Positions 10,192 through 22,892 of a stretch of 40,171 nt of DNA are shown piece after piece. A program made the translations under genes and the position numbers. The notes below the pieces were generated by a model that saw only the letters and a list, made by a program, of their open reading frames with translations, ran no database searches and was not told where the DNA came from. Source of the stretch: Desulfamplus magnetovallimortis (GTDB lineage: Bacteria > Desulfobacterota > Desulfobacteria > Desulfobacterales > Desulfobacteraceae); the NCBI RefSeq assembly GCF_900170035.1, contig NZ_LT828545.1:208965-249135 (forward strand). The letters are read 5' to 3'. Every line of letters starts with the position of its first letter. Within the stretch, counting starts at the first letter, position 1.

Positions 10192-10228
10192 AATGCCTCT
10201 TCTTGTGATTTGGGAAGGGGCATTTTTA
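10192..10228 (+). terminator. Stem-loop terminator between acyl-CoA dehydrogenase and cheD
   Basis: AATGCCTCTTC (10192-10202) pairs with GGGAAGGGGCATT (10212-10224), an 11-bp stem with one T-G pair and a 9-base loop, followed by TTTAT. It sits between convergent genes, and the cheD stop codon (complement of 10226-10228) lies in the T-tract, so it may work in both directions. Confidence 0.7.
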
Positions 10229-10738
10229 TCTGTCACTTTCGTATGGGTACCAGTCTGATTGCCTAAGGTTTGGAACCTTGAGTATGGCAATTTCACAGTT
10301 TGATGTATTAAAAACAATCTTCCTTCCGATCTCTCCTCCCACATCTTCTGATATGATTTTAATATTTAATCTGTTTAAAATATTGCGGGCAGCATTGATG
10401 TTCCTTGTGCCGATATTATGTTGTGACAGTTCAGGATTATAGGCTCCACCAAAAATCTGGGCAACAAGATGTCTGTTTTTTGAGCCGGAAGATTTCATCA
10501 TCCTTACCAGGGCAAGGGTTGCAACATTACCATATCTTGCTGTGGGGTCATCGCTTTTAAGAGCTTCAGGAAACTGAAAGTGGTTCATACCTCCAATTTT
10601 TTGCTTTTTGTCAAAAATGCAAACAGAGACTGATGAACCAAGTACAGTTGAAATGGCAACTGGTTTCTCAGCCATATATATAAAACCCGGTCGCAGCAGA
10701 TAGTCCTGGGGTAGTGGTTTGTTGGTGGCATTGTTCAT
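10226..10738 (-). CDS. cheD: CheD-like chemoreceptor deamidase homologue, catalytic Cys replaced by Ser
   Basis: 170-residue cytoplasmic CheD homologue; CheD deamidates glutamines of methyl-accepting chemoreceptors and binds CheC. The family core is clear: YLLRPGFIYMAEKPVAIST, VLGSSVSVCIFD, IGGMNHFQFPE, then ARYGNVATLALVRMM, QIFGGAYNPELSQHNIGTRN and ISEDVGGEIGRKIVFNT. In characterised CheD (Thermotoga) the triad is Thr21, Cys27, His44 in TxGLGSCV ... AHV. Here the histidine is kept (H53), the threonine position aligns with S30, and the nucleophilic cysteine of GSCV is serine (S36, codon TCA). Activity is therefore doubtful; a binding or scaffolding role is possible. No che operon is nearby. 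Convergent with the acyl-CoA dehydrogenase gene. Confidence 0.8.
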   Translation of the reverse strand: MNNATNKPLPQDYLLRPGFIYMAEKPVAISTVLGSSVSVCIFDKKQKIGGMNHFQFPEALKSDDPTARYGNVATLALVRMMKSSGSKNRHLVAQIFGGAYNPELSQHNIGTRNINAARNILNRLNIKIISEDVGGEIGRKIVFNTSNCEIAILKVPNLRQSDWYPYESDR

Positions 10739-11112: not shown

Positions 11113-11324
11113 CACATCGGAATTATTATTATATTGAATATACAATTTCAAGTTATTAATGATAATTACACACTCTTGTATATAAATATTGCATCATACC
11201 GTTATCATGTGTTAAAAAATTGGATTATATTATTTGGAATTATTAATCTGAAATCGGCATCCTCTATTGTCTGATTTTTTACAAGGTTGTCAGTTTATGA
11301 CACTATTTTCCATAGGTGATACTC

Positions 11325-12257
11325 TTGTCCGGAATCTCTGATATCAAAATTGGATATCTGGAAATTCTTGACCATTTAGTGGTTGAAATCGGGAGAGCCG
11401 GAAATAAACAGTCTGAATCAGGGGCCTGCCCCGATGGTGTGGATACTGTTATCATGGGTAGCTGGGCTGCGCTTACACATGCACTTTGCGAAGGTGACAT
11501 ACAGGGCGCTTTTATTCCCCTGCCCGAAGCTATGTCACTATTCAGTAACGGCCTTGATATAAAAATATTGTTGCTGGATTGTCGCCCTGGTACTTTTGTT
11601 GTGGCCAACCGTGCAGCAGGTGTTGCCAGGCTCAGTGATTTTAAGGGCAAGAGTGTTCTTTTACCAGGTATTCTCTCTGTGTATTATCTGCTGTTTCACA
11701 GATTGATGGGCTCGGCTGGTTTGAGAACCGGAATTGAAAATCAGGCTACTTGTGATGTCTTTATTGAAGTTGTGCCGTCATTTATGATACCGGAGATGAT
11801 AAGTTGTGACATTGATGGTGATATAGCAGGATGCATGGTTGAAGAGCCTTTTGCATCAAGGATCATATATGAAGGTTATGGCAAAAAGATCTGCCATTCC
11901 AGGAGTCTGTGGCCTGATCATCCACACACTGCCTTAGTAATGCATGATCATGTGATAGATAACCATCGATCTTCAGTGCTGGAATTTGTCAGGTGGATTG
12001 CGGAATCAAACAGTGCTGTTTACAGACAATCCCCTGATTTAAAGTTTTACCTTGAAAATATGCCGGATCAGAAACGCTCCATGATGGAGAAAATATCTAC
12101 CTCCGCGTTCTCTTCAAAACCTTTCTCCCTGGTACCGGATATTCATCTCCTTGAAATTATAAATGATTTTATGGTGAAAGAGATGGGTTTGCTCAACAGC
12201 ATTATTCGCATGGATGATTTTGTTGACATACAGTTTGCTGTTGAGGCAGGAGCATGA
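11325..12257 (+). CDS. NrtA/NMT1-like substrate-binding-fold protein without signal peptide
   Basis: 310 residues from TTG at 11325, chosen because AGGTGA lies five bases upstream; a GTG at 11316 is the alternative. It begins directly with the mature-type strand SDIKIGYLEILDHLVV, so there is no export signal and the product should be cytoplasmic. It aligns by eye with the two other binding proteins of the cluster: VPSFMIPEMI (their LPPSEMP and VPPIKMP), then GDIAGCMVEEPFASRII and SRSLWPDHPHTALVM, matching the G-x-x-V-x-E-P and W-x-x-H-P motifs of the nitrate/bicarbonate/taurine family. A cytoplasmic copy recalls the C-terminal NrtA-like regulatory domain of cyanobacterial NrtC, here encoded as a separate protein. 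First gene of a tight cluster; the ATPase starts five bases after its stop. Confidence 0.75.
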   Translation: MSGISDIKIGYLEILDHLVVEIGRAGNKQSESGACPDGVDTVIMGSWAALTHALCEGDIQGAFIPLPEAMSLFSNGLDIKILLLDCRPGTFVVANRAAGVARLSDFKGKSVLLPGILSVYYLLFHRLMGSAGLRTGIENQATCDVFIEVVPSFMIPEMISCDIDGDIAGCMVEEPFASRIIYEGYGKKICHSRSLWPDHPHTALVMHDHVIDNHRSSVLEFVRWIAESNSAVYRQSPDLKFYLENMPDQKRSMMEKISTSAFSSKPFSLVPDIHLLEIINDFMVKEMGLLNSIIRMDDFVDIQFAVEAGA

Positions 12258-12262
12258 ACTAA

Positions 12263-13036
12263 TTGAATAACATTGAAATTCAAAACGTATCCAAGGTTTT
12301 TCCAAGGTTTGATGCCGGAAGGAATATTGTTCTTGATGATATCTCCTTTTCCATAAAAAGTGGAGATTTTGTTACTGTTCTTGGGGAGTCCGGCGGTGGC
12401 AAGACCACTTTGCTCAATCTTATCGCGGGGCTTGAATCCCCAACATCGGGGGAAATTCTTATTGATGGCAAAAAGATTGAGGGTAGCCATCCTTCACGCT
12501 CCATGCTTTTTCAGCAGCCTGTGTTGATTCCATGGCTCTCTGTCAAGGATAATGTGGCCTATGGTTGCAGGTTAAGGGGTGACCTTGATCGACTTGATTA
12601 CAGGGTGCATCAGTTTCTTGAGATGATGGGGCTATCCTGTTTTGAAAATGCCAAACCATCCTCACTGTCACTTGGTATGGCACAGAGGGTTTGTCTTGCC
12701 AGGGCACTTGTCGGGAGAGCAGAGATGTTGCTGTTGGATGAACCTTTTGCATCTCTTGATACGTTTACCCAGGCTCATATCCAGGAGGAGCTGATAAATA
12801 TCTGGCTAAGTGAAGCCTTTACCGCTGTTTTTGTGACCCATGACATTGATGAGGCGATTCTTCTGGGAAACAAGATTATTCTTCTTGGTGGCTATCCTGG
12901 CAGGATATGGGGTGTTTATGATATTGCAGAACCTTACCCAAGAAACATGGATTGTGAAAAACTGAAATCATTCAGACGGGAAATACTGGCTAATTTTAAA
13001 AGAGCGCATGTGGGCAACAGGAGGTTTCTCCAATGA
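12263..13036 (+). CDS. ABC transporter ATPase, nitrate/sulfonate/taurine type
   Basis: 257-residue cytoplasmic ATP-binding subunit of the NrtD/SsuB/TauB group. Walker A GESGGGKTT (41-49), Q-loop FQQPVLIPWLSVKDNV, Walker B MLLLDEPFASLD (155-166), switch histidine in VFVTHDIDEAI (H193). The signature motif is LSLGMAQR instead of the usual LSGGMxQR, a Leu at the first glycine (L137). TTG start at 12263 after AGGAG about 11 bases upstream. Its TGA overlaps the ATG of the next gene (ATGA), so translation is coupled to the Tat-exported binding protein. Confidence 0.9.
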   Translation: MNNIEIQNVSKVFPRFDAGRNIVLDDISFSIKSGDFVTVLGESGGGKTTLLNLIAGLESPTSGEILIDGKKIEGSHPSRSMLFQQPVLIPWLSVKDNVAYGCRLRGDLDRLDYRVHQFLEMMGLSCFENAKPSSLSLGMAQRVCLARALVGRAEMLLLDEPFASLDTFTQAHIQEELINIWLSEAFTAVFVTHDIDEAILLGNKIILLGGYPGRIWGVYDIAEPYPRNMDCEKLKSFRREILANFKRAHVGNRRFLQ

Positions 13037-14340
13037 AGCATTTTCTAAAAAATCATTCTTTTATCAATGGAGCTGCGAACATTGAACAGAATGCTCAAAG
13101 CTCTGCTACACTTGATTCTACTGCCTTTGATAATGGGAGTAGTTATTGTAAAAAACTTGACAGGCGTTCTTTTTTAAAGAAGAGTGTTGCCGCAACCATA
13201 GGTGCAACCCTTATGCCGTTACCCATGAAGGCATTTGCCCGTGAACCTGAACTTAAAATAGGCTACATCCCCATTACAGATGCCACCCCGCTTTTGATTG
13301 CCCACAGCCTCGGATTTTTCAGGGACGAAGGTTTGAAAGTTCAAAGACCTGTCATGATACGCTCCTGGACTGTTCTCACCGAATCTTTTATCGGAGGGAA
13401 ATTTAATCTTACGCACATGCTTTTTCCCATACCTGTCTGGATGCGTTTCAGCCGCAATATTCCTGTTAAGGTGCTGGCCTGGGATCACACAAACGGCAGC
13501 GCTGTGACAGTACATGGGGAATCTGGTATAAGGGGATTTGGTGACCTTGGCGGTAAACAGATTGCAGTTCCCTCATGGTACTCCATGCATAACTTTATTC
13601 TTCAGATGGGCATAATGGCAAAGGGCCTGACACCTGTAATAAGACCACAGGATGCAGAGTTGAAATCTGATGAAGTTAATCTGTTTGTCCTTCCTCCTTC
13701 TGAGATGCCTCCTGCTCTTTTAGGAAGAAAAATGGATGGCTTTATTGTTGCAGAACCATTTAATGCATTGGCTGAAATGAAGCTAAATGCAAGGATAATG
13801 CGTTTTACAGGAGATATCTGGAAAAATCATCCATGTTGTGTGCTTGTATCACATGAACAACTATTAAAGGAGCAGCCGGTATTTATCCAGAAAGCAGTAA
13901 ATGCTGTTGTTCGTGCCCAGTTGTGGTGCACAAAAAATCCTGAAAGGGCAGCTCACATCCTGAGCCGTGAAGGAGACGGATATCTTCCTGTGCATGAGGA
14001 GGTGCTTTTGAGGGTATTTACAGGATACGATGACAAAAAATATCTTGAAGGTCCCAAGCCAAGACCTATAATGCATCCGGAGTGGCAAACAGGCAGGATA
14101 GGATTTCAACCTTATCCATATCCTTCAGCAACCCGTTTTATTATTGAACAGATGGCAAGGACAAAGGTTGAAGGTGACACTGACTTTATCAGGGCAATAG
14201 ATCCTGTGCGTGGTGCCGGCCTCCTTGTGGATGACACTTTTGTAAAAAAAGCCATGCAGGAGATGAGAGTTCATGGTACCTTTGGCAGTGAAGAAGATTT
14301 TACATCATTTGCCCGGGAAGAGGTTATAGAGATTGGCTAA
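13033..14340 (+). CDS. Tat-exported substrate-binding protein of the ABC transporter
   Basis: 435 residues. A long 42-residue Asn/Ser-rich n-region precedes a Tat signal LDRRSFLKKSVAATIGATL (RR at 44-45) with hydrophobic core and a likely cleavage near KAFA-R. The mature protein begins EPELKIGYIPITDATPLLIA, the classic start of NrtA/SsuA/TauA-type binding proteins, and contains LPPSEMPPALLGRKMDGFIVAEPFNA and GDIWKNHPCCVLV. The Tat route implies folding before export, sometimes with a cofactor. Substrate is unknown; nitrate, sulfonate, taurine, bicarbonate, thiamine precursors and aromatic anions all occur in the family. It overlaps the ATPase gene by four and the permease gene by eight bases. 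Confidence 0.88.
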   Translation: MKHFLKNHSFINGAANIEQNAQSSATLDSTAFDNGSSYCKKLDRRSFLKKSVAATIGATLMPLPMKAFAREPELKIGYIPITDATPLLIAHSLGFFRDEGLKVQRPVMIRSWTVLTESFIGGKFNLTHMLFPIPVWMRFSRNIPVKVLAWDHTNGSAVTVHGESGIRGFGDLGGKQIAVPSWYSMHNFILQMGIMAKGLTPVIRPQDAELKSDEVNLFVLPPSEMPPALLGRKMDGFIVAEPFNALAEMKLNARIMRFTGDIWKNHPCCVLVSHEQLLKEQPVFIQKAVNAVVRAQLWCTKNPERAAHILSREGDGYLPVHEEVLLRVFTGYDDKKYLEGPKPRPIMHPEWQTGRIGFQPYPYPSATRFIIEQMARTKVEGDTDFIRAIDPVRGAGLLVDDTFVKKAMQEMRVHGTFGSEEDFTSFAREEVIEIG

Positions 14341-15367
14341 GGACAAAGTTTATATAAATCCTGATCTGAAATTCGATGCTGCACCCGATCCTGATAGAGA
14401 TGTTGGTTCTGACTTCTCTTCTGATATCAATGAGAAAATGTCCGGTTGGGGAGAGAATGATTTATATCGAGAATCTTCCCGGATAGAAGATGGTTCGGCA
14501 ATTGAGGAAAAACTTGATTTTCCACTTGATCAGGAAGGTTTTCGCTCTGATTCTCATCCAATTAAGAGTGAGAATCGTTTCAGTTTTCAAGCCTTTTTTG
14601 CCTATCGTGCTGAAAGTTTTAAATATGAATCTTTAGGTATTATTCTTCTCTTCACTATGTGGATGGTTGGCGGCATAATCTTTGTTTATATATCAGGCCA
14701 TGAGCAGTTCAATGATTTTTTGCCTGTTCCTGCTTTCAAAGCGCTTTTCAGGGCAATTCAGGAAGATCGTTTCTGGTTTTCTGTTTGGGCAAGTATAAGG
14801 CGTGTTTTAACCGGAATAACCATTGCAGCCCTAATTGGCGTGCCTTTGGGACTTGTAACCGGATTCTATCCTGTGCTTCGCAATATTGCCTATGCACCCA
14901 CCCAGTTTTTGAGAATGATAAGCCCTCTGGCTTGGATGCCTGTGGCATTGATTCTTTTTACAAGTTTTGAGTCTGCAATCTGTTTTTTGATAGCAATGGC
15001 AACAGTCTGGCCGATTATTCTCAATACAGCTTCCGGTGTTGCAACCATAAATCCTCAGTGGATAGAGATGGCAATGAATCAGGGAGCAAGTTCTCCCCAG
15101 CTATTACGTACCATTGTTATTCCGGCATCACTGCCGGCGATTTTGTCAAGTTTGCGACTTGCCCTTGGTGTTGCATGGATTGTTCTTGTGCCTGCGGAGT
15201 TTCTTGGTGTTGCAAGTGGTCTTGGGTACCTCATAAACGATGCAAGAGATACCCTTGAATATGACATGCTGATGGCCATGATTATTGCTATTGGAATCAT
15301 GGGCTTTGTTTTGGATAAAGTTTTCCAGTATATTCAGGCTGTGGTTGTAAGGTCGTGGATGCAATAG
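14333..15367 (+). CDS. ABC transporter permease with acidic N-terminal extension
   Basis: 344 residues; TTG start at 14333 overlaps the preceding gene by eight bases. Residues 1-90 are an unusual acidic hydrophilic extension (PDLKFDAAPDPDRDVGSD region). From ~98 there is a standard SsuC/TauC/NrtB permease: first helix GIILLFTMWMVGGIIFVYI, then FWFSVWASIRRVLTGITIAA, RMISPLAWMPVALILF, and the ATPase-docking EAA loop around EMAMNQGASSPQLLRTIVIP. C-terminal helices follow to the end. It forms the inner-membrane channel for the ATPase and Tat-exported binding protein. The extension is unlike the family, which normally starts close to the first helix; a downstream start (ATG 14438) would shorten but not remove it. 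Confidence 0.87.
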   Translation: MAKDKVYINPDLKFDAAPDPDRDVGSDFSSDINEKMSGWGENDLYRESSRIEDGSAIEEKLDFPLDQEGFRSDSHPIKSENRFSFQAFFAYRAESFKYESLGIILLFTMWMVGGIIFVYISGHEQFNDFLPVPAFKALFRAIQEDRFWFSVWASIRRVLTGITIAALIGVPLGLVTGFYPVLRNIAYAPTQFLRMISPLAWMPVALILFTSFESAICFLIAMATVWPIILNTASGVATINPQWIEMAMNQGASSPQLLRTIVIPASLPAILSSLRLALGVAWIVLVPAEFLGVASGLGYLINDARDTLEYDMLMAMIIAIGIMGFVLDKVFQYIQAVVVRSWMQ

Positions 15368-15886
15368 CCTGGAGTATTTCCAAGTCAGAAGCATTCGTGC
15401 TATATGGGCATGATCGTATATTAACTATCCCATAATACGGACATATGATTCGTTTTTGTGGTAAAAATAATATGTTATAGAGACTTTTGGCATGCTTCAA
15501 CTTTTTTGCTTTTTATCTATAGCATTCCAGATTAATAAAGCTTATAGTATAGATTTTTCCATTTTTTTCTTTCCAAAACAAATGATTATGGAAAAGTCTG
15601 CCCGAAGGGGGCTAACTTCTTCGGTGTGAATGGTATGGACACGGTACACCGTGACATTACTCAAGAGTCCTAACTTCTCAAATCCACCACCACATATTGT
15701 ATTTTCAATTCTTTGAAAAATACTATCTGTGGTCTCCATTTAGAGAACTTATGACTAACGAGGACATTACAACAAAGTTATTTTTCTGGAAATCTATATA
15801 AAGCCTTGTTGAAATGGTTTTAAGGTAAATCAGATGAGATATGGAGTATGCCAGATTTTTACATAAAAAATCTAAGGAGTGTTTTT
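15368..15886. other. 519-bp gap within the transporter/CheY cluster
   Basis: No convincing gene. A 65-codon minus-strand frame (15542-15739) has no ribosome binding site and no recognisable domain. A small hairpin CCGAAG/CTTCGG lies near 15602-15623, and an inverted repeat CACGGT-AC-ACCGTG at 15640-15653 could be a regulator site or a hairpin. The gap makes a separate promoter for the CheY-fusion gene likely. Confidence 0.5.
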
Positions 15887-17269
15887 ATGGCAGTGGATCC
15901 TAAAATCAAAATTCTTATAGCAGATGATTCAGGCACAATGCGTATCATGTTCAAGCAGATGCTGAACAAGGCCGGCTTTGAAAATATTACGGTTGCCGTG
16001 GATGGCAGTGATGGAATTAAGAAGGTGCAGGAGCAGAAGCCTGATCTGGTTATCAGTGACTGGAACATGCCTCGACTTGATGGACTTGAGTTTCTCCAAT
16101 GGCTTCGGAAAACACCACCTTATCAGGATATCCCTTTTATTATGGCCACAGCCCAGGCAGATAAGGGACAGCAGATTGCAATAAAAGAGGCAGGTGGCAA
16201 TGGGCATGTACCAAAACCATTTGATTCCAATCAGATAAAGGATGCTATCTATAAGGTCTTTGCACCTGAAGCTGTTGCTCAATCTGGCCCAAGAACACGC
16301 AATATTATTGACGGGAAGGTTGAGATAACTGTTGCACATATTCAGATTACCGACCATCTTGCCCTTGGAGCATTGAAACACCGCATAGAGACAGGAGAAA
16401 TTGCTCCGCGTCATTTCCAGCTAAAAGTTGAGAAAAAACCTGGCTGGAATCCCATTCAGGAGGGACTTGAGACAGGGGAGCTTGACTGTGCCTTTGTGCT
16501 TGCCCCAATTGCAATGGATCTTTTTGCATATGATTCTCCAATACAGCTTGTGCTCCTTGCCCATAAAAATGGAAGTACTTTTGTCAGAAGCAGGCATTAT
16601 GATCCACGCTTTGATTCACTTCAAAGTTTTTACAAATATAAGGTAGTTGATATTCCCCATAAAATGTCAATTCATCATATGCTTGCACATCAGTTTCTAA
16701 AGGAGCTGGGGCTGAAACCAGGTGTGCCGGGTAAAAAGGCCATAAACGTAAGATTTGAGGTTGTTCCTCCCATCAAGATGCCCGGAATAATGAAGGAAAA
16801 TGAAGATGTGGCAGGTTTTATGGTTGCAGAGCCAATTGCCACCAAGGCAATTGCCCTTGAGATCGGAAACCTTGAATTTCTATCGTCCACCCGCTGGGAT
16901 AAGCACCCCTGCTGTATTGTTGCCATGCAGAAGGAGTTTATCCAGAACTATCCTGATGCAGTCCAGGAATTTGTATCTCTTTTGATTGAAACAGGACAGT
17001 ATGTGGAGCAGGATAAGCCAAGGGCTGCACAGATTGCTGTTAATTTTCTTGATCCTGACGGAAAGCTTGGCCTCAGTACTGCTGTGCTTGAAAAAGTGTT
17101 TGCTCAACCCATGGCTATTCGTATGGATGATCTTTATCCAGTTCTGGAAGATTTCGACCGTATCCAGAAATATATGCATGATGTTATGGAAATTGGAAAA
17201 ATTATTGATCTTGAGAAATTTATAGACACAACTTTTGCCCACAAGGCAGTAATGCAGATGCATGGTTGA
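15887..17269 (+). CDS. CheY-type receiver fused to NrtA/NMT1-like substrate-binding domain
   Basis: 460 residues from ATG 15887, set by AAGGAG seven bases upstream; the in-frame ATG at 15848 lacks a site. Residues 6-128 are a complete CheY-like receiver: acidic pair D13-D14, phospho-acceptor D58 (LVISDWNMPRLDG), ATAQ switch region and the lysine in HVPKPFD. From ~150 a solute-binding-protein domain follows without any signal or membrane segment (KVEITVAHIQITDHLALGAL start; VVPPIKMPGIM; DVAGFMVAEPIATKAI; SSTRWDKHPCCIVAM), homologous to the two binding proteins upstream. The product must be cytoplasmic, with ligand binding and phosphorylation in one chain. A role linking intracellular substrate level to motility or to the transporter is inference. 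The next gene starts nine bases after its stop. Confidence 0.85.
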   Translation: MAVDPKIKILIADDSGTMRIMFKQMLNKAGFENITVAVDGSDGIKKVQEQKPDLVISDWNMPRLDGLEFLQWLRKTPPYQDIPFIMATAQADKGQQIAIKEAGGNGHVPKPFDSNQIKDAIYKVFAPEAVAQSGPRTRNIIDGKVEITVAHIQITDHLALGALKHRIETGEIAPRHFQLKVEKKPGWNPIQEGLETGELDCAFVLAPIAMDLFAYDSPIQLVLLAHKNGSTFVRSRHYDPRFDSLQSFYKYKVVDIPHKMSIHHMLAHQFLKELGLKPGVPGKKAINVRFEVVPPIKMPGIMKENEDVAGFMVAEPIATKAIALEIGNLEFLSSTRWDKHPCCIVAMQKEFIQNYPDAVQEFVSLLIETGQYVEQDKPRAAQIAVNFLDPDGKLGLSTAVLEKVFAQPMAIRMDDLYPVLEDFDRIQKYMHDVMEIGKIIDLEKFIDTTFAHKAVMQMHG

Positions 17270-17277
17270 GGATAACA

Positions 17278-18114
17278 GTGAAAGTAACCCATCCAGATGT
17301 CATAAAAACTGGTGAAAAAGATTTAATTGACTCCATTAAAGAAGATCTTGACTGGGATGCCATCAGGGTGCTTGTTGCTGAAGGAGTCAGAAAAACCACC
17401 TTCAGGTCAAATGGTGGAGAGATTGTAGTACATGAGGGAGAGATTGCCTTCAAGATAGATGTGGAGGTCAGAACCTCTGTTTCACTGTTTTTTGACAGAC
17501 AGGGAAACTACATAAAAATGAAAGAGATTGATGCTTCAGAAGAGGGTGGAGGAAAAACAGAAGCTGGAGCAGATATAAATGATTCTCAGAAAAGATCTGA
17601 AACAGATGATTCTCAGGAAAGCCTTGACCCTGAGCCTGAAGTGGGCATGGAATATGACAATGAGATGAAAAAAAACAGTGATTCAGAGGAGCCAGATGAT
17701 CTTGAAGATTCCGTGACAGAAGATTTAATGGCAGAAAATTCCGTGACAGAAGATTCCGTGACAGAAGATTCCGTGTCAGAAGATTTCATGGCAGAAGATT
17801 CCGTGACAGAAGATTTCATGGCAGAAGATTCCGTGACAGAAGATTTCATGACAGAAGATTCCGTGACAGAAGATTTCATGGTAGAAGACTCCGTGACAGA
17901 AGACTCCATGATTGAAGATTCCGTGATTGAAGGATCTGAAGAGCTTGCTGAAGAATTTGAAAGAGAAAATGGGCAATCAATTGATGAGGATATAATGCAG
18001 GATTTTGAGGATGTTCTCTCTTTTTCCGGAGATAATGACCACGAAAATACAGATGAGGATATCGAATCACTGCTGAAAGAGAGCCGTGATTTTTGGGAAA
18101 ACAGAAAAAAGTGA
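17278..18114 (+). CDS. Acidic protein with ~10-residue tandem repeats, unknown function
   Basis: 278 residues from GTG 17278, preceded by GAGGAT; the longer TTG 17266 frame overlaps the upstream stop without a better site. Residues 1-85 form a compact alpha/beta-looking domain (MKVTHPDVIKTGEKDLIDSI, LDWDAIRVLVAEGVRKTTF, SLFFDRQGNYIKMKEID) with no family I recognise. The remainder is very acidic and Ser/Thr rich, with repeats of the type EDSVTEDFMA between about residues 145 and 218, then an acidic helical end (SLLKESRDFWENRKK). No signal peptide or membrane segment. Position right behind the CheY-binding-protein fusion suggests a partner, but that is inference. Confidence 0.75.
   Translation: MKVTHPDVIKTGEKDLIDSIKEDLDWDAIRVLVAEGVRKTTFRSNGGEIVVHEGEIAFKIDVEVRTSVSLFFDRQGNYIKMKEIDASEEGGGKTEAGADINDSQKRSETDDSQESLDPEPEVGMEYDNEMKKNSDSEEPDDLEDSVTEDLMAENSVTEDSVTEDSVSEDFMAEDSVTEDFMAEDSVTEDFMTEDSVTEDFMVEDSVTEDSMIEDSVIEGSEELAEEFERENGQSIDEDIMQDFEDVLSFSGDNDHENTDEDIESLLKESRDFWENRKK
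17706..17935 (+). repeat. 15/30-bp tandem repeats inside the acidic protein gene
   Basis: About 15 imperfect copies of a 15-base unit alternating between GAAGATTCCGTGACA and GAAGATTTCATGGCA, giving a 30-base higher-order unit. Units are multiples of three, so length variation keeps the frame. The complementary strand is also open through the repeat, a by-product of the composition. Confidence 0.9.
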
Positions 18115-21590: not shown

Positions 21591-22892
21591 TTAATCCATT
21601 CCATTTATAGCCTCATCAATATCCTTAGAAGCAGCGTTGCAAATCTGTGTCAGTTCTGAAGCCTCAATACCAAGGATAATGGCTGATTGAATATTTTCCA
21701 TGTCCGTCGATGCCTCCCTTGCTGGAAAGCCATGACCCATTGTTACCGAAAGCTGGTCTGCAAGGTTTACAACCAGCACTTCATTGTCTATCTCGTCATC
21801 AAATTTGTCCCATTCATGCAATCTTGCAACATCCACAAAATCTTTTCCAAAATTCCAAGTTTTGAAAAGCGTTCCTCCAAAACTTGCATGAACCTCAATT
21901 ACACTGCTGATAAGTTCGTCAACAAGAGCTTGGTTGTTTTCCATCATATCTTTTTGTGCAGAGTCTTTTTTCTGTTTTGCGATAATGTCATCAATATTTT
22001 TTATAAGAAGTGTTGCCCCCACATCATGTATGAGACCCTTTACAAATGCCTGCTCTTCCTTTACTGACCACACTTTGCCTGCAATATGCCTTGAAAGATG
22101 GGCAACGGCAAAGGAGTGTTTCCATAGCAGATCCATAACAGGTTTTATATAAGGCACTTTGGTTTCGTAAAGTCCTTTATTTGCAATTTCAGAGACAATG
22201 GATCTTGTTTTATCAAGGCCAAGGCGACTGATGGCCATCTTCACATCTTTAATGTTTTCAACCCCTCCGTAATATGGAGAATTTGCGGCCTTGATAAGGT
22301 TGATTGATATTGCTGTATCTTTTTTTATTATTTTTGCCATTTCAGAAGAGGATGCATTGGGTGAATTCATCATGTCCTGGAGTTCCTGAACAATGAATGG
22401 CAATGATGGCAACTCAACCTTTCCCTTCTTAAATCCCTCAATTGCATCGGCAACCATTTTTGATATGGAAAGCTCTGTTTCAGTGGGAGGAGCAGCATCA
22501 GGGGTAAAACCCATTTTTTGCATTTTTTCAATTACAACATGCTTTTTAAAAGGTTTTACAGCATAGTCATCGCATCCGGCAACATAACAGGCGATAACAG
22601 TGTCTTTGTCAGCATAGGATGTCAGCATCAGAACTTTTGTCCTGTCTTCCTTTGTGATATTCTTTTTTTTCTCAAAGCTTCTGACCTCTTTCAACAGCTC
22701 AATGCCATCCATCTCCGGCATTGAAACGTCCAGAATAAGCATATCAAAGGGAGTGCCTTCGTCAAAATTTTTTACAAAGGCTTCCAATGCAGGTTTTCCG
22801 GTTTCAAAAAGCTCTGTCTCACCAATCTCGGAAAGCATTTTAGCGATTCTTAGACGGCTGACAGGTTCATCTTCTGCTACCAGTATTTTCAT
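21591..22892 (-). CDS. Response regulator with HDOD output domain
   Basis: 433 residues. An N-terminal receiver (1-125) has the acidic pair in VAEDEP, phospho-acceptor in MLILDVSMPEMDG, switch TSYAD and the lysine in YAVKPFKK. After a linker comes an HDOD domain (~165-370): LPSLPFIVQELQDMMNSPNA, the metal-free HD-like fold segments KKDTAISINLIKAANSPYYG, ISRLGLDKTRSIV, and FVKGLIHDVGATLLIKNID. HDOD proteins act in signalling without a known catalytic activity, often controlling motility, surface attachment or second-messenger systems. Divergence from usual two-domain regulators is small. Fifty-nine bases separate it from the receiver-receiver-HPt gene upstream on the same strand, so the two are probably cotranscribed. 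Confidence 0.9.
   Translation of the reverse strand: MKILVAEDEPVSRLRIAKMLSEIGETELFETGKPALEAFVKNFDEGTPFDMLILDVSMPEMDGIELLKEVRSFEKKKNITKEDRTKVLMLTSYADKDTVIACYVAGCDDYAVKPFKKHVVIEKMQKMGFTPDAAPPTETELSISKMVADAIEGFKKGKVELPSLPFIVQELQDMMNSPNASSSEMAKIIKKDTAISINLIKAANSPYYGGVENIKDVKMAISRLGLDKTRSIVSEIANKGLYETKVPYIKPVMDLLWKHSFAVAHLSRHIAGKVWSVKEEQAFVKGLIHDVGATLLIKNIDDIIAKQKKDSAQKDMMENNQALVDELISSVIEVHASFGGTLFKTWNFGKDFVDVARLHEWDKFDDEIDNEVLVVNLADQLSVTMGHGFPAREASTDMENIQSAIILGIEASELTQICNAASKDIDEAINGMD

Follow-up and report, generated by a model that had tools for sequence, protein, structure and literature searches.

A CheY-type receiver fused to an ABC-type binding domain and encoded beside a candidate importer in Desulfamplus magnetovallimortis

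Relation to described sensory and transport proteins

Textbook chemotaxis reads the cell exterior. Taxis that depends on metabolism is usually deduced from indirect cues, redox among them; internal state is sensed and passed on to CheA by soluble cytoplasmic chemoreceptors and by energy-taxis receptors. We describe here a six-gene cluster (A to F, 11316-18114, all on the + strand) in a window of 40,171 nucleotides, the whole stretch of DNA analyzed, from Desulfamplus magnetovallimortis (NZ_LT828545.1, positions 208,965 to 249,135; contig C6 of the 6.68 Mb host genome). The fifth product, E, joins a CheY-type receiver to a substrate-binding domain of the NMT1_2 family, and we read it, with moderate confidence, as a chemosensory protein that senses a ligand in the cytosol and is coupled to its own ATP-binding cassette (ABC) importer. 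This soluble chemosensory reading is favored because of the domain fusions among relatives of E, the gene order, the intact receiver residues, and the residues common to E and the exported binding protein C. Like soluble chemoreceptors and energy-taxis receptors, E would sense internal state and feed CheA; the difference is that no signaling domain of methyl-accepting chemotaxis proteins (MCPs; Pfam MCPsignal) was detected in E or in 17 other REC-NMT1_2 proteins, in which a receiver (REC) is paired with NMT1_2.

The C-terminal domain of CmpC and NrtC, from the cyanobacterial bicarbonate and nitrate ABC transporters, is likewise a cytoplasmic NrtA-like domain tied to its own importer. According to PMC13249358, the CmpC domain senses intracellular nitrate and thereupon releases its ATPases, which agrees with the regulatory precedent cited in the original prediction for this locus; genuine sensing by an NrtA-like domain in the cytoplasm is therefore possible. 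The CmpC/NrtC domain, however, is part of the ATPase chain, where it gates transport, whereas E is fused to a CheY receiver and its relatives to CheW or CheA. No such ATPase fusion occurs in the cluster, where A and E are separate proteins and the ATPase B has 257 residues. CheV, a CheW-receiver fusion, provides a further comparison. Many relatives of E (45 of 103) also carry a receiver and CheW in one soluble protein, but in these the binding domain lies between the two, and the E protein of the window does not contain CheW.

Each part of the system is of a known kind and the combination is new; should sensing be confirmed, a separate chemosensor class would be at hand. As a tentative generalization, offered with less conviction than the reading of E itself, proteins with this arrangement (REC-SBP, for receiver and substrate-binding-protein domain) could form an unnamed chemosensor class found in several phyla, with a cytoplasmic ABC-type binding domain behind a CheY receiver, outputs through CheW, CheA, or partner switching, and navigation by the internal concentration of a solute that a dedicated importer supplies. 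No description of the REC-SBP family was found in the titles and abstract openings of papers listed by targeted searches of an open PMC library, although signal-transduction databases may contain the architectures uncommented; to that extent the earlier remark that no named system of this type is known holds. The word NMT1 is also absent from the main text of a survey of CheA architectures (PMC10782961). If the reading of E is correct, a soluble binding domain hard-wired to CheY/CheW and encoded alongside its importer would provide a direct readout of an imported solute, and transport-coupled chemotaxis would be testable with one purified protein. The idea behind CmpC and NrtC, an internal copy of a binding protein used as a sensor, would then extend from transporter gating to behavior.

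Domain fusions and a candidate pocket in E

The reading frame of E (473 aa, 15848..17269, +) encodes a CheY-type receiver (15911..16249; Pfam Response_reg, 4.4e-27) with phospho-acceptor D71 at 16058-16060, followed by an NMT1_2 binding-fold domain (16316..17257; 8.2e-27, 95 bits) with an HPCC motif at 16904-16915, and it lacks a signal peptide. Translation probably starts at an internal Met at 15887 because homologues mostly align from residue 14. Residues D27, D71, and K123 of the receiver are invariant in 62 aligned rows and T101 is kept in at least 90%, and at position 26 the window has Asp where most other rows have Glu; judged from the alignment, the phosphorylation residues are intact. 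The binding domains of A, C, and E all exceed the curated Pfam cutoff for NMT1_2 of 24.7 bits.

E is one member of a REC-SBP family whose modules are cytoplasmic and occur in Desulfobacterota. Among the best 80 matches, whose last rows match the receiver only, the nearest named relatives by E are metagenome-assembled genomes (MAGs) of Desulfamplus (84-89% identical), and the named non-MAG records with the full module include Desulfobacter latus, Desulfoluna spongiiphila, Desulfatibacillum alkenivorans, and Desulfacinum hydrothermale. The same matches include single MAG contigs labeled Spirochaetes, KSB1, Bacteroidetes, and Melioribacter, for which binning errors are possible; two of the proteins on these contigs (L190 and L214) were run against Pfam. 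The family sample comprises 103 distinct proteins, divided into 45 CheW fusions (assigned by BLAST), 43 short proteins (<520 aa, like E of the window), and 15 other long proteins. Outside this set stand two CheA fusions and one histidine-kinase fusion (L078_7, L112_0, and L084_1), for which the best BLAST match was another reference.

Pfam assigned the architecture REC-NMT1_2-CheW to proteins from L080, L087, L064, L083, L190, and L214, and the C-terminal CheW of REC-NMT1_2 proteins scored 1e-32 to 1e-34 in seven cases and 1.7e-10 in L085. By the same method, REC-NMT1_2 precedes a CheA core in L078 (H-kinase_dim, HATPase_c, and two CheW domains), follows a histidine kinase (HisKA/HATPase) in L084, is joined to SpoIIE in L102, and is extended by HATPase_c_2-STAS in four proteins (L107:6669-8918, L117:7792-9984, L118:1880-4093, and L119:6452-8770). 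Of 395 genomes sampled across the phylum, 23 contained a match at E <= 1e-35, 20 of them outside the order to which D. magnetovallimortis belongs (Desulfobacterales); in 17 of these 20 the frames span 645-734 aa, the size of the CheW form, and four begin with a receiver. On this distribution the REC-SBP-CheW form looks widespread and the short form looks like a derived lineage.

Several of these architectures are worth recording in their own right. The CheA-like protein of L078 (6975-10058, -) bears REC-NMT1_2 at its N-terminus in the place of Hpt, and no Hpt domain was found in it by Pfam. Tandem REC-SBP-REC-SBP-CheW proteins of ~1200 residues occur in L076 (7968-11567) and L085 (7790-11407; both by Pfam), and the HATPase_c_2-STAS fusions unite the binding domain with RsbW- and RsbV-like domains in a single chain.

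A quick, unrooted tree of binding domains placed the E domains on one side of a branch (76 rows, SH-aLRT 100) and likewise the C domains (26 rows, support 100), while A and its counterparts from other B-C-D clusters formed a group of 15 (support 99). The notion that E is a plain CheY with a chance fusion was rejected on the basis of this branch and the presence of the module on contigs of several phyla.

The AlphaFold2 model of E is confident (pLDDT 92.8, pTM 0.89). Foldseek ranks 3un6 first among PDB entries (TM 0.91 on the target), with NrtC, CmpC, NrtA, TauA, and SsuA next; together these matches place the binding domain in the type II binding-protein fold, and the receiver part matches CheY. 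The 3un6 entry, an ABC-type ligand-binding component from S. aureus with zinc in its title, has W200, H239, H276, and the CC pair as in E; it differs in being the binding component of an import system and in lacking D169 and the W-x-x-H-P context. H276 of E aligns with the CmpC His counted as H409, with a one-residue numbering offset remaining, and CmpC H409 is equated with NrtA H196 in PMC11349869.

Three motifs that the original prediction had picked out in A, C, and E are real, namely P308-x-x-M311-P312, G323-x-x-V326-x-E-P329, and W350-x-x-H353-P354 (E numbering), although A has Ser for P308 and Ile for M311. The binding folds of E and C are alike at 15 positions of the candidate pocket: T168, D169, W200, H239, G242, S243, P270, S274, H276, P329, W350, H353, P354, C355, and C356. 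These positions are identical in all 29 C rows and in no fewer than 103 of the 104 E rows, in a residue table that leaves out three long-branch rows (L062_6, L120_10, and L121_8). Most lie at strand ends and helix starts in the secondary structure of the model, as is typical of ligand residues in this fold. E and C have a conserved candidate pocket in common. A background set of 20 NMT1_2 proteins was assembled for comparison (four of 30 loci gave no row, and two window, four REC-SBP, and one partial row were removed from 27), with the proviso that distant rows may be misaligned at single positions. Only one background protein, L240, combines D169, W200, H239, G242, S243, S274, and H276, and it lacks the full HPCC, reading H-I-C-C. 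L240, from genome G160, is apparently a Tat-exported (twin-arginine translocation) binding protein with an E-like D-H-L motif and most of the pocket residues, and may resemble the exported protein from which the cytoplasmic copies descend.

The importer and its conservation with A, E, and F

All six genes of the original prediction are present at the coordinates it gave, with A-B-C-D contiguous and E-F contiguous. The interval between D and E is 480 bases in the window (15368-15847) and <100 bases in locus L052. B (12263..13036, +) is an ATPase resembling NrtD/SsuB/TauB, for which ABC_tran (2.3e-33) is the sole Pfam family over its cutoff, with no binding domain fused to it. D (344 aa, 14333..15367, +) is a permease (BPD_transp_1, 2.4e-22) whose N-terminal 70-100 residues are without counterpart in most homologues. 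C (435 aa, 13033..14340, +; NMT1_2 1.5e-46, 159.8 bits) is a substrate-binding protein with a twin-arginine motif, RRSFLKK in the context DRRSFLKK (13162..13182, +), read from the sequence. Export was judged by this motif, the hydropathy test being uninformative for Tat signals, and an RR motif near the N-terminus is found in 27 of 28 C homologues, two of 35 standalone binding proteins, and one of 103 E-type proteins, in keeping with the Tat export originally proposed for C.

An ABC importer of the NrtA/SsuA/TauA kind is the best explanation for B-C-D. Assignment to a known nitrate, taurine, sulfonate, or Sao system was rejected, as B, C, and D fell below the curated NCBIfam cutoffs for the nitrate, taurine, sulfonate, and SaoA/P/X equivalogs. 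Scores against cutoffs were 199.8/360 for SaoA, the best for B (a comparison resting on the best 25 of 188 families), 150/295 for SaoP, and 85.5/163.5 for SsuA_fam.

Other Desulfobacteraceae also have the order A-B-C-D-E-F, which is a family-level arrangement; roughly half of the loci with it include a divergent CheD gene. Among 112 distinct REC-SBP loci, tblastn placed B, C, and D together within 8 kb of E in 20, and none of the three was found in 89 (some contigs being short); these loci form a biased sample, fetched because of E. Where E is at least 72% identical to that of the window (18 loci from Desulfamplus, Desulfobacula, Desulfotignum, Desulfobacter, and other Desulfobacteraceae), B, C, and D are near E in 16 and A-like and F-like genes are also present in 15. 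In the three exceptions (L154, L162, and L219) the contig edge cuts through B or C, where the locus starts. In the remaining four of the 20 loci, a REC-SBP-CheW gene lies directly upstream of B-C-D (L080, L082, L087, and L098). The presence of B, C, and D was taken from tblastn, a simple open reading frame caller having misplaced genes (e.g., in L074, L087, L098, and L159). Only exact duplicates were removed, and some named contigs repeat sampled genomes (e.g., L164 and L052).

Across 145 genomes of the order, clear C orthologues were found in 18, a count that excludes one weak match (G030, 36%). A REC-SBP gene is present in 17 of these 18 versus 16 of the 127 without C (Fisher p = 3e-12, uncorrected for kinship). 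The REC-SBP gene stands beside B-C-D in seven of the 18 and beside B only in G018, where it is of the REC-SBP-CheW form; in the other 10 it is not beside B-C-D, and in several of these the contig ends within a few kb. The 33 REC-SBP genomes underlying this count, used against 145 genomes for C and 140 for CheD (all 33 being assumed to lie among the 140), were read by eye from 11 scored candidates per genome, and receivers crowd the first pass, so genes could be missed; a search scoring all candidates with the A protein revealed no further genome with a REC-SBP-type frame. The proposal of one exported and two cytoplasmic binding proteins is thus borne out in the conserved cluster. The expectation that the six genes co-occur in this order holds for 15 of the 18 close loci and does not extend to the 10 C genomes in which REC-SBP is not beside B-C-D. 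The absence of cytoplasmic binding proteins from homologous clusters in most genomes, named at the outset as evidence against the proposal, is thus half borne out, and 17 of 18 C genomes carry REC-SBP somewhere.

A (313 aa, 11316..12257, +; NMT1_2 2.5e-20, 73.8 bits) lacks a signal peptide. It has Cys, Tyr, His, and Thr in place of H239, H276, C355, and C356 of E, and its terminal branch length is 0.95, compared with 0.13 for C and 0.16 for E; within the A group of 15, each of the two HPCC Cys is kept by seven. By these measures A is fast evolving, with an eroded pocket in the window, and the earlier suggestion that it reads the same ligand and controls the transporter is not supported beyond gene position. 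The same genome encodes a second standalone binding protein (G000:C1:496823-497761, L063) that is not eroded in this way and retains every candidate pocket residue as well as HPCC.

F (282 aa, 17266..18114, +) consists of a conserved N-terminal domain of ~85 residues, seen in an alignment of 25 homologues, and an acidic repeat tail (residues 101-282; 18% D and 20% E). It matched no Pfam family, and its structure model is of low confidence (pLDDT 64.8). Standalone binding proteins related to A occur beside or within ~1.2 kb of REC-SBP genes without B-C-D in L054, L055, L057, L059, L090, L073, and L074, although in the tree they fall outside the group of A. In L054 and L090 a homologue of F comes after E, and in L055, L057, and L059 one is found nearby, all without the transporter. 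Because A relatives and F homologues are thus found near REC-SBP in the absence of B-C-D, these loci hint at a partnership of A and F with E rather than with the importer.

Chemosensory context and competing explanations

A CheD-like gene (10226..10738, -; Pfam CheD, 4.1e-23), absent from the original description, is divergent from the six genes of the window, and nine other loci also have CheD next to the cluster. CheD receptor deamidases define the Pfam family of this gene, but the cluster copies have Ser at the position of a Cys that we take to be the essential catalytic nucleophile (LGSSVSV in the window; GSS in 10 of 10 copies, that is, the window and nine of nine others). Members of this CheD family elsewhere keep Cys in 17 of the 20 loci with a readable motif (of 29 in total), with Gly in two and Ser in one. 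The cluster CheD therefore lacks the hallmark of a deamidase. According to PMC3513319, the binding functions of CheD weigh more for B. subtilis chemotaxis than its deamidase activity, and a noncatalytic role for the Ser-type CheD is therefore plausible by analogy.

The genome of the window contains six CheA-type and 28 MCP genes in all; at L064 it has a REC-SBP-CheW gene, after which come a receiver gene and CheA. A Desulfobacter latus paralogue of E (69%) is located within a CheA-containing cluster (L053/L168), and all four HATPase_c_2-STAS fusions adjoin CheA genes. A CheA or MCP match lies within 9 kb of three of 43 short proteins, five of 45 CheW fusions, and 10 of 15 other long proteins, and in the controls near none of 10 standalone loci and two of 10 C loci without REC-SBP. 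Neighborhood alone is weak evidence because most REC-SBP loci are without CheA or MCP, yet two of the 10 C-only loci have a match. The CheW- and CheA-fused kin, the CheY-like receiver, and CheD suggest a chemotaxis link for E of the window, and the phosphorelay or motility wiring originally proposed for E gains support through the family. A search for chemotaxis genes near homologous clusters, suggested at the same time, returned CheD in 10 loci, with CheA or MCP near just three short proteins.

In the mechanism that we favor, C would deliver a solute through B-D, and the binding domain of E would read the cytosolic level of this solute or a close analogue. CheA would phosphorylate the CheY-type receiver, ligand binding and phosphorylation would jointly change the effect of E on the chemosensory pathway, and uptake would thereby be reported to the motility or chemosensory pathway. 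In the CheW-bearing relatives, and the few with CheA, the module would be placed in the receptor array, as a CheV-like protein with a ligand domain; in the lineage of the window, E would act in solution as a CheY-like reporter free to diffuse, and its partners may be A, F, and the Ser-type CheD. Ligand binding by E, a ligand common to C and E, phosphorylation by CheA, and the effect on motility are steps that we infer, and cells may in this way steer by a solute already taken up.

A number of observations weigh against this mechanism. E itself contains no CheW domain (Pfam) and no CheA or MCP gene stands beside it, and a distance of 9 kb holds no CheA or MCP match apart from the protein itself for 40 of the 43 short proteins and 40 of the 45 CheW fusions, some loci being short. 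The CheD family occurs in 28 of 140 genomes of the order (E < 1e-35), 13 of them without REC-SBP. The idea of CheD as an exclusive partner is thereby weakened, although co-occurrence is above chance (REC-SBP in 15 of 28 genomes with the CheD family versus 18 of 112 without; Fisher p = 1e-4, uncorrected for kinship or motility). HPCC was rejected as a private signature of C and E, since 10 of the 20 background proteins carry it. C and E also differ at H164/Y, Q166/P, H170/A, D224/W, and G383/Q, and because of these five positions their ligands may differ; the similarity of the pockets makes related ligand chemistry likely.

Some of this evidence would suit a transporter that controls itself, with A and/or E acting on the ATPase B as the C-terminal domains of CmpC and NrtC do on their own, internal ligand gating uptake, the receiver adding control by phosphorylation, and motility uninvolved in the lineage of the window. 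The CmpC regulatory domain is reported to sense nitrate and block ATPases (PMC13249358), NrtC and CmpC are the second and third fold matches of E, A-B-C-D-E-F are tightly linked, and most short E proteins have no CheA or MCP gene matched beside them. We nevertheless judge this explanation unlikely: B, C, and D are missing beside REC-SBP in the 89 loci noted above, CheW is the commonest fusion partner, and complete B homologues (~250-277 aa) include none with a fused binding domain. Still less probable, in our estimate, is that the binding fold of E is a docking or dimerization domain without ligand, E being simply an adaptor or phosphate sink of the usual CheY kind. In its favor, proteins of the short lineage have no output domain and A of the window illustrates that pockets in this group can erode, but the near-invariance of the candidate pocket in E and its match to exported C would be unexpected from docking alone.

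Fusions of relatives to HisKA/HATPase (L084), HATPase_c_2-STAS (L107, L117, L118, and L119), and SpoIIE (L102, with no CheA or MCP match within 9 kb) raise a further alternative, in which E feeds a nonmotility output, either a histidine kinase phosphorelay or RsbW/STAS/SpoIIE partner switching of gene expression. We consider it improbable and the least probable of the three, given that the four HATPase_c_2-STAS fusions adjoin CheA genes and that CheW fusions are far more numerous.

An Rfam scan of the window produced no matches. Beyond the cluster, the third gene downstream of F encodes a receiver-HDOD protein (21591-22892, -), and an HDOD gene also neighbors REC-SBP-CheW in locus L176.

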